Shown piece after piece: positions 19,847-32,971 of a stretch of DNA of 33,498 bases. The stretch comes from Pseudomonadota bacterium (GTDB taxonomy: Bacteria; CALINM01): assembly GCA_026418415.1 (NCBI GenBank), contig JAOABK010000004.1, positions 58,529 to 92,026 of the forward strand, in the 5' to 3' direction. Both the position numbers and the translations under genes were made by a program. Positions within the stretch are counted from its first letter, which is position 1, and the number at the start of each line of letters is the position of its first letter. Below the pieces are notes generated by a model. The model ran no database searches, was not told the origin of the DNA, and was given only the letters and a program-made list of their open reading frames with translations.

Positions 19847-20701
19847 ATGAAATTAAGAAAAAAATTAATTTTAATTTTATTTATAGTTTTTAATTTTCCC
19901 TTAGAACTAAAAGCTCAACAAAAAATATTATACCAAATATTTTTACATGGCGAGGACTCAATCGCTATATATAGTGAACTCACAAGATATATAAGCCAGA
20001 AAACTAAAAAAAACTATATTTCAGTATTTGAAGAAAACTCAAAAAGCGCTGCTCAAAAGATTTTTAACAAAGAGACATCTTTGGGATTTTTATGCTCTGG
20101 ACCCTATGTAATTTATAGAAAAGATTTTTATTTGGAACCCCTTGTAACAATCAAGCCAATACAAGACAGAAGTTACAGAAGTTATATATTTGTAAGAAAA
20201 GAAAAACCCTATAAAGATTTAAAAGATCTAAAAGGAAAATCCTTTTCCTATGCTTATTTAGAATCTTTTACTGGAAGATTAATACCAATTAGTATGATAA
20301 AAGACCTAAAAGAAGACCCTCAAAAATTTTTCTCAGAGATTACTTATTCAAAAAATCATCATCAAAGTATTATTAATGTTCTTGAAGGTAAAGCTGAAGG
20401 CGGAGCAGCTATGAGTTTTGTCTATGAACATATATCGGATATAAATCCTGAAATTAAAACTAAACTCAAAGTAATAGAAAAAAGTAAAATCTATTCTCCC
20501 CCCCTTTTTGTCACAAGCAAATACACTTCACAAAAAGTTAAAAGGAAACTCAAGGACATATTACTCAATATGCATAAAGATCCTAAGGGTAAAGAAGTAT
20601 TAAAGAAAATGGAAATTGAAAAATTTGTCGAAATAAAAGATATAAAAGCCTATGATGAAATAGAAAGTGTTATAAATTCAGTAAAAGAGTTTTTGCCTTA
20701 A
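19847..20701 (+). CDS. PhnD-like periplasmic substrate-binding protein (orphan)
   Basis: The 284-residue protein has a signal peptide (hydrophobic core about 7-19, ending LKAQ) and the two-lobed fold expected of phosphate/phosphite/phosphonate-type binding proteins: an early IYSELTRYISQKTKK segment, LGFLCSGPYVIYR, then PYKDLKDLKGKSFSYAYLES, a hinge pattern common to this family. No permease or ATPase gene is near, so it is an orphan; such proteins also serve as sensors for histidine kinases or bind oxyanions. I cannot name the ligand. There is no SD, and a -10 box lies just upstream. Its stop is 4 nt from the stop of the convergent UPF0284 gene, with no terminator between. Confidence 0.8.
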   Translation: MKLRKKLILILFIVFNFPLELKAQQKILYQIFLHGEDSIAIYSELTRYISQKTKKNYISVFEENSKSAAQKIFNKETSLGFLCSGPYVIYRKDFYLEPLVTIKPIQDRSYRSYIFVRKEKPYKDLKDLKGKSFSYAYLESFTGRLIPISMIKDLKEDPQKFFSEITYSKNHHQSIINVLEGKAEGGAAMSFVYEHISDINPEIKTKLKVIEKSKIYSPPLFVTSKYTSQKVKRKLKDILLNMHKDPKGKEVLKKMEIEKFVEIKDIKAYDEIESVINSVKEFLP

Positions 20702-29466: not shown

Positions 29467-31719
29467 TTATCCGCACTCACTATAACTGCATATCCTGCAA
29501 ACAACACAACCACCTTCATGTTCCAATGGCCCACCACAGTCTGGGCATGCCCCACTTGTAAAAGTTTCTTTTTCTATACTTACATTATGTCCATTGTTTT
29601 TTAAATGTAACTCTATCGCTTTTGCAACCGCATCTGCGCATGAAAGTATCTTATTTTCACCAAAACCGGAAGGCTTATGACAAGAGATACCAACCAATTG
29701 CTTGATTACTTGTTTTGCAGGCACACCAGAACGCCAAGCTAAAGAAACCATTCTGCCTATCGCCTCACATTGAGATGCTGCACATCCACCTGCTTTGCCC
29801 ATGGTTGTAAATAACTCAAACAAACCAACATTATCTTCATTAATAGTAATATAAATAGGACCACAGCCTGTCTGCATTTGATAAGTCCATCCCTTTAAAG
29901 CCTTTGGTCTATCTCTTTTCACTACTTTATTTTCTTCACCCTTGCTCGTTATCTTTTTCTCTGTTTTACCAGACATCAAAACCTGACTTTCCCTTGAACC
30001 ATCCCTATAGATTGTTATGCCCTTACATCCTAACTTATAGGCTAAAAGGTATGCCCTTTCAACATCTTCAATAGTTGCATCATGGGGGAAGTTAATTGTC
30101 TTACTTACTGCATTATCTGTATGCTTCTGAAATACCGCTTGCATTCTAACATGGGCTTCTGCTGGGATATCATGTGCAGTAACAAATACCCTCCTAATCT
30201 CTTGTGGTATTTCTTCCATATCCTTTATTGTCCCATGCTCAGCGATTTTTTTCATTAATTCTTCAGAATAAAATCCCTTCTCTTTTGCAATCCTTTCGAA
30301 ATAGGGATTTACCTCAACCAATCTTGTTCCATCCATAACATTTCTAAAATAACAAACAGCAAAAAGTGGTTCTACTCCAGATGAAGTATTGGCTATAATC
30401 GAGATTGTGCCTGTCGGAGCAATTGTAGTTACAGTGGCATTTCTCATTGGCTCTAAATTAGGCCTATCATAAATAGATCCTTTAAAGTTTGGAAAAGGAC
30501 CTCTCAATTTTGCCAGCTCTCTTGATGCTTTATGCCCTTCATTTCTTATGAAAGCCATTACCTTATCTGCTAACTCAAGAGCTTCTTCTGAATCGTATGG
30601 TATCCCTAATTGAACAAGCATATCAGCCCAACCCATTACTCCAAGCCCAATCTTTCTATTTGCCTTGGTCATTTCATCTATTTTTTGCAGTGGATATTTA
30701 TTAACTTCTATGACATTATCAAGAAAGTGTACCGCTAAATGAACAGTTTCTCTAAGTTTTTCCCAATCTATATCTTTTCCTTTAACCATCTTAGCCAAAT
30801 TTATTGAGCCCAGATTACAGGATTCATAAGGAAGAAGGGGTTGTTCACCACAAGGGTTTGTGGCCTCAATCTCCCCAATGTGGGGAGTTGGATTATCCTT
30901 ATTCAATCTATCAAGAAAAACTATACCAGGTTCACCATTTTTCCATGCCTGCTTTACAAGTCTTTTAAAGACTTTTCGAGCATTTAGTTTACCAACTACC
31001 TCTTTAGTTCTTGGATTAATCAAATCATAATCCCTATCTGCTTCTACCGCTTTCATGAACTCTTCAGTCACACCTACTGAAATATTAAAATTATTTAGAG
31101 CATTGTTGTCATCCTTGCACATTATGAAATCCATAATATCAGGATGATCAACTCTTAAAATCCCCATATTCGCGCCTCTGCGAGTTCCTCCTTGCTTTAT
31201 TGTCTCCGTGGCTACATCAAAAACCCTCATAAATGATATGGGGCCACTTGATATCCCAGTTGTTGACTTTACTACATCATTAGCAGGTCTCAGTCTTGAA
31301 AAAGAAAAGCCAGTACCTCCCCCAGATTTATGAATTAAAGCAGTATATTTAACTGCTTCAAATATCTCTTCCATAGAATCACCAACAGGGAGAACAAAAC
31401 AAGCTGAAAGCTGTCCTAACTCCCTTCCAGCATTCATTAAAGTTGGAGAGTTAGGCAGGAATTCAAGATTAACCATCATATTATAAAACCTATTTTCAAG
31501 ATCTGTAGTATCATCTATACCAAACTTTTTGTCTGCTTCTGCTATTGCCTTAGCAACTCTAAGAAAAAGTTCTTCAGGGGTTTCAATTGGATTTCCATCT
31601 GGACCTTTTTTTAAATATCTTTTTTGCAAAACAGTAAGCGCATTTTTGGAAAGATTTATTTTTTGTAGTTTATTGCTTTTATCTTCATTTAATTTAATTA
31701 TTTTAGTTGTTTCCTGCAT
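29467..31719 (-). CDS. nrdJ: Adenosylcobalamin-dependent (class II) ribonucleotide reductase
   Basis: NrdJ reduces ribonucleotides to deoxyribonucleotides using AdoCbl and works with or without oxygen. The 750-residue protein contains the thiyl-radical motif NPCGE (288-292, Cys290), the redox pair Cys107 (LSACF) and Cys301 (SCNLGSINL), and the phosphate-binding region [21 protein letters not shown]-type C-terminal region ([11 protein letters not shown]) leads to a zinc-ribbon tail with CPDC and CVVC, then a terminal CSYSEC. I placed the start at the ATG 31717-31719 with SD GGGAG; a 37-codon longer frame runs back through the promoter and is rejected. The upstream region carries two NrdR-like boxes. 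The window also encodes late AdoCbl synthesis. Confidence 0.96.
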
Positions 31720-31732
31720 ATTATCTCCCAAG

Positions 31733-31748
31733 ATACAATATTTAGTGG
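31733..31748 (-). promoter_or_regulatory. NrdR-like box 2, downstream of the nrdJ -10
   Basis: The plus-strand 16-mer ATACAATATTTAGTGG also matches 13 of 16 positions of the recalled NrdR consensus and ends in the same TAGTGG as box 1. It starts exactly 32 bp from box 1 in the same register, three helical turns, the spacing usual for paired NrdR boxes. It lies in the 5' untranslated region, ahead of the SD. Confidence 0.75.
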
Positions 31749-31759
31749 TTTTGAAAATA

Positions 31760-31788
31760 TTTTTACCCCATATATAGTGGTATGTCAA
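31760..31788 (-). promoter_or_regulatory. Sigma70 promoter of nrdJ
   Basis: On the minus strand TTGACA (31788-31783) and TAAAAA (31765-31760) are separated by 17 nt. The -35 is perfect and the -10 matches four of six bases. The predicted start is about 35 nt before the nrdJ ATG. The spacer is filled by the first NrdR-like box, so a bound repressor would block polymerase directly. Confidence 0.7.
31765..31780 (-). promoter_or_regulatory. NrdR-like box 1, between the -35 and -10 of nrdJ
   Basis: The plus-strand 16-mer ACCCCATATATAGTGG matches 13 of 16 positions of the NrdR box consensus aCaCwAtATaTwGtgt as I recall it, with the core ATATATAG intact. NrdR is a dATP/ATP-sensing repressor of ribonucleotide reductase genes in most bacteria. 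The element fills the promoter spacer of nrdJ. Confidence 0.75.

Positions 31789-31843: not shown

Positions 31844-32971
<1,128 letters not shown>

Follow-up and report, generated by a model that had tools for sequence, protein, structure and literature searches.

How is transcription of nrdJ, the gene of an adenosylcobalamin-dependent class II ribonucleotide reductase, controlled in this bacterium? The first-pass annotation of the window, by which the whole stretch of 33,498 nucleotides analysed here is meant, had recognized two NrdR-box-like 16-mers at the nrdJ promoter and had predicted control through the dATP/ATP-sensing repressor NrdR rather than through a cobalamin riboswitch. Rescoring against the consensus acaCwAtATaTwGtgt (16 positions) recovers both 16-mers where they had been placed, each being three positions off the consensus (Table 1). 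The boxes start 32 bp apart, as claimed, with a spacer of 16 bp between them, whereas the claim that they share the same orientation is weakly informative because both are near-palindromes. Direct reading also agrees with the described arrangement, in which one box lies in the spacer of the promoter and the other past the -10 element. On the minus strand the leader reads TTGACA-TACCACTATATATGGGG-TAAAAA-TATTTTCAAAACCACTAAATATTGTATCTTGGGAGATAAT-ATG, box 1 and the -10 element sharing one base, the last of the former and the first of the latter, and 13 bp separating box 2 from the nrdJ ATG (31719). The two boxes thus straddle TTGACA-N17-TAAAAA in front of a ribonucleotide reductase gene, and, judged from the sequence, they most probably constitute one predicted NrdR operator on the nrdJ promoter (probability roughly 0.93).

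Table 1. Features of the nrdJ control region and flanking genes (positions in the window; elements read on the minus strand are given from their 5' end)
Feature	Position	Strand	Remarks
-35 element TTGACA	31788-31783	minus	read directly; kept in the same-genus relative
-35/-10 spacer, 17 bp	31782-31766	minus	read directly
NrdR box 1, CCACTATATATGGGGT	31780-31765	minus	13/16 to consensus; inside the -35/-10 spacer
-10 element TAAAAA	31765-31760	minus	TATAAA at the same place in the same-genus relative
NrdR box 2, CCACTAAATATTGTAT	31748-31733	minus	13/16 to consensus; just downstream of the -10 element
nrdJ	29467..31719	minus	NCBIfam NF006417, 1287 bits versus cut-off 961
dnaJ	31844..32959	minus	NF008035/TIGR02349 over cut-off

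The promoter itself was read from the sequence; a simple promoter scan was by itself not significant (2 sites versus 1.7 expected) and favoured an 18-bp spacer with AAAAAT over N17-TAAAAA. The upstream neighbour of nrdJ on the same strand is dnaJ, and the order dnaJ-nrdJ is also found in a same-genus relative (G001), which together with a family-level relative (G002) was compared with this draft genome (G000). A TTG start upstream of nrdJ would open a reading frame of 787 amino acids and make the boxes part of the coding sequence. This start was rejected because the alignment with G001 contains single-base insertions or deletions both in box 2 and in the DNA that separates the two boxes; in the same alignment the reading of the leader diverges between the window and G001, which likewise counts against the longer frame. 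The NrdJ protein comprises 750 amino acids and ends in a C-terminal TSCPD domain (Pfam). Since Pfam finds no ATP-cone in it, control of its activity by dATP through an ATP-cone is not expected, suggesting that transcriptional control of nrdJ carries more weight. As to its origin, the window NrdJ (29467-31719) shares about 74% of its residues with Geobacter-type NrdJ and about 60% with that of most other phyla, in a comparison listing no same-phylum genomes outside its own family, and, as far as such identities go, nrdJ may possibly have been acquired by horizontal transfer.

Could two such boxes have come together by chance in AT-rich intergenic DNA? Lone boxes matching 11-13 of 16 positions are indeed common in the AT-rich window, as exemplified by a 13/16 match at 19962 in a coding region, and taken singly they would leave room for this explanation. 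The signal, in consequence, rests on pairing, spacing and placement rather than on single boxes. When the window was scanned with the NrdR motif, the nrdJ pair with a score of 26 surpassed every other pair in the 33.5 kb, and it also exceeded all randomized sequences: when the entire window was shuffled 60 times with dinucleotides preserved, the best pair scored 24; 20,000 shuffles of the same kind, confined to the intergenic region of 124 bp, likewise gave a maximum of 24 and never 26; and an order-1 Markov model of window composition, run out to 16 Mb, produced no pair of at least 26 at a spacing of 31-33 bp. The next-best pair of the window, 19930/19962 with a score of 23, was dismissed as a candidate; it lies inside a phosphonate-binding-protein gene, and in Markov sequence a score of 23 should turn up several times in every 2 Mb. 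As the nrdJ pair is moreover kept in G001, an origin by chance can be regarded as negligibly probable.

Alignment of the nrdJ upstream regions, which the first-pass annotation had suggested as a check, reveals that both boxes are retained in G001. There the boxes CCACTACATATGGTAT (box 1) and CCACTAAATATTGATA (box 2) sit on TTGACA-N17-TATAAA at a distance of 31 bp, corresponding to a 15-bp spacer, and box 2 is identical apart from one inserted base. The spacers of 16 bp in the window and 15 bp in G001 both fall into the range of 15-17 bp that was best for four tested NrdRs (PMC12051234). This conservation amounts to weak footprinting because the two genomes are close, NrdJ being 90% and the upstream DNA 87% identical. 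In G002, which has nrdR, neither a long nrdJ nor an nrdD was found for comparison. Box pairs are seen over a wider range when nrdJ genes of other bacterial and archaeal assemblies are considered: upstream pairs scoring at least 24 at a spacing of 31-33 bp were present at 24 of 80 nrdJ genes drawn from other phyla, as compared to 0 of 320 equally long coding control stretches.

Furthermore, the class III reductase gene nrdD carries a box pair on a TTGACT-N17-TTTAAT promoter in G000 as well as in G001, where the first box again falls in the spacer and the second just downstream, at a distance of 32 bp. In genome-wide scans of the draft, which were made by patterns only, CWAHATATKG-N20-24-CWAHATATKG matched the 2.03 Mb exactly twice, at nrdJ and at nrdD. 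A looser core-pair pattern returned nrdJ, nrdD and one coding-region site from the whole draft, and a more symmetric pattern returned nrdJ and nrdD (one mismatch each), a third pair on contig C106 and one weak site. The boxes of G001, the nrdD pair and the pairs in other phyla together support the view that the nrdJ boxes have the textbook layout of an NrdR operator. It could be imagined that a different regulator recognizing a similar AT-rich palindrome owns the paired boxes, as the matches to the consensus are partial and NrdR binding is a prediction. Against this speak the pair spacing of 31-33 bp, the concentration of pairs on ribonucleotide reductase promoters in G000 and their recurrence at nrdJ across phyla, which together are a signature of NrdR and make ownership by another regulator very unlikely.

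Does the bacterium possess the repressor for which these boxes would be made? A search for nrdR, also proposed in the first-pass annotation, had a mixed outcome: the NrdR zinc-ribbon family was not found in the G000 draft (92% complete, 161 contigs), but both relatives encode NrdR, and they do so at the very place where contigs of the draft break off. The zinc ribbon and the ATP-cone are recognized in the G001 protein, encoded at L040:8569-9033, and the zinc ribbon in that of G002, and both proteins contain D15, R17, R26-29 and R37, through which NrdR of Streptomyces coelicolor contacts DNA (PMC9110341). In both relatives nrdR is located between the dCMP deaminase gene and ribD in the order fabF-rpiB/glyA-dCMP deaminase-nrdR-ribD-ribE-ribBA-ribH-nusB, where all names except that of nrdR were taken from reading the translations. 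Contig C76 of G000 can be aligned with G001 as far as fabF, where the contig ends; contig C44 takes the alignment up again with its first base, which lies within ribBA, so that about 5.5 kb between these contig ends, including nrdR, are missing from the assembly. An assembly gap is the most plausible reason for the absence of nrdR, since fabF and ribBA, in which the contigs break off, flank the nrdR interval of the relatives. For the same reason, namely that this interval coincides with a contig break in G000, the missing gene was rejected as a refutation of the NrdR operator. We infer that the strain probably has NrdR, its absence from the draft being uninformative on account of the gap.

One could nevertheless suppose that the strain has lost nrdR and that the boxes are the decaying relic of an operator, which would agree with the failure to find the gene in the assembly and with boxes that, at 13/16, fall short of perfect. 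Such a loss is highly improbable, as the assembly breaks off on either side of the nrdR interval, the neighbours of nrdR are missing as well (neither a dCMP deaminase nor the G001 rpiB/glyA-ribD-ribE DNA had a match in the draft) and the boxes are still conserved at nrdJ and nrdD within the genus. The locus offers a clean case of a regulator whose apparent loss can be put down to an interrupted draft assembly.

Is nrdJ instead, or in addition, controlled by cobalamin? No Rfam family was detected in the window at the gathering threshold, and the cobalamin aptamer (RF00174) was not detected near nrdJ even at a lax threshold admitting E values up to 5, for which reason a riboswitch in the nrdJ leader was rejected. 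The single cobalamin riboswitch detected in the genome (G000:C22:51567-51785, minus strand) is found upstream of genes that, by reading of their translations rather than by family search, appear to serve B12 biosynthesis and cobalt transport, and not upstream of nrdJ. The earlier statement that nrdJ is not under a cobalamin riboswitch hence holds. It looks as if the supply of B12 is controlled by a riboswitch and nrdJ by NrdR, and in principle the two kinds of control are compatible.

How would NrdR act on this promoter? NrdR loaded with dATP and ATP forms a tetramer on paired boxes and represses, and does not bind with ATP alone (PMC9110341). When dATP is plentiful, NrdR carrying dATP and ATP would accordingly bind the nrdJ box pair as a tetramer, with one dimer per box and the two dimers three helical turns apart. 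The tetramer would bend the DNA and cover the promoter from the -35 element to the start region, and the class II ribonucleotide reductase would be repressed. When ATP predominates, NrdR would be released and nrdJ transcribed. The class III gene nrdD would be subject to the same repressor. Binding of NrdR at nrdJ and repression by it are thus predictions drawn from the boxes and their setting.

The predicted operator has close counterparts in known systems. In the nrdRJ operator of S. coelicolor, two 16-bp boxes likewise lie on a class II reductase promoter, about three helical turns apart as here, and the DNA-contacting residues of its NrdR are those shared by the proteins of the two relatives; in Streptomyces, however, nrdR is co-transcribed with nrdJ, whereas in the relatives it belongs to the dCMP deaminase-nrdR-ribD cluster and nrdJ in the window follows dnaJ (PMC9110341). 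In Pseudomonas aeruginosa nrdJ, nrdA and nrdD each have two NrdR boxes, the class II gene being included as here, and NrdR represses all three genes aerobically, in agreement with box mutations; the anaerobic response differs, nrdJa being down in the mutant. P. aeruginosa also has a class I enzyme, whereas the box-bearing genes here are of class II and class III (PMC4409342). The nrdDG operator of Listeria monocytogenes shares with the nrdJ operator the 16-bp spacer and boxes that overlap the RNA polymerase site, albeit nrdDG is a class III operon and nrdJ here a class II gene (PMC12051234). The operator is ordinary and of low surprise; it would extend the NrdR-box rule to class II and class III reductase genes of a sparsely sampled lineage and leaves the understanding of ribonucleotide reductase control unchanged.

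Two further loci outside the window touch on the extent of the regulon. The third box pair (G000:C106:25310-25351; L152 5308-5355) matches the consensus at 14/16 and 12/16 positions, scores 26 and has a spacing of 32 bp, a 16-bp spacer and TTGACA just upstream. It precedes an open reading frame for a Lys/Ala-rich, histone-H1-like protein of 47 amino acids; the region had no match in G001, and the corresponding place in G002 holds other genes and no boxes. In addition, a second, shorter nrdJ of 547 amino acids, 57% identical to the window NrdJ, is found in the draft (G000:C126; L052 1465-3108), where nothing comparable to the NrdR boxes was detected. It also occurs in G001 (C130) and in G002 (C150), in the latter as the only nrdJ found; in G000 and G002 it is arranged divergently to a neighbouring sigma-70-like gene. 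It might be speculated that the NrdR regulon reaches the Lys/Ala-rich protein and that the short, boxless nrdJ escapes the repressor, an idea we consider rather doubtful; if it were true, nucleoid packaging would be tied to the sensing of dNTPs.
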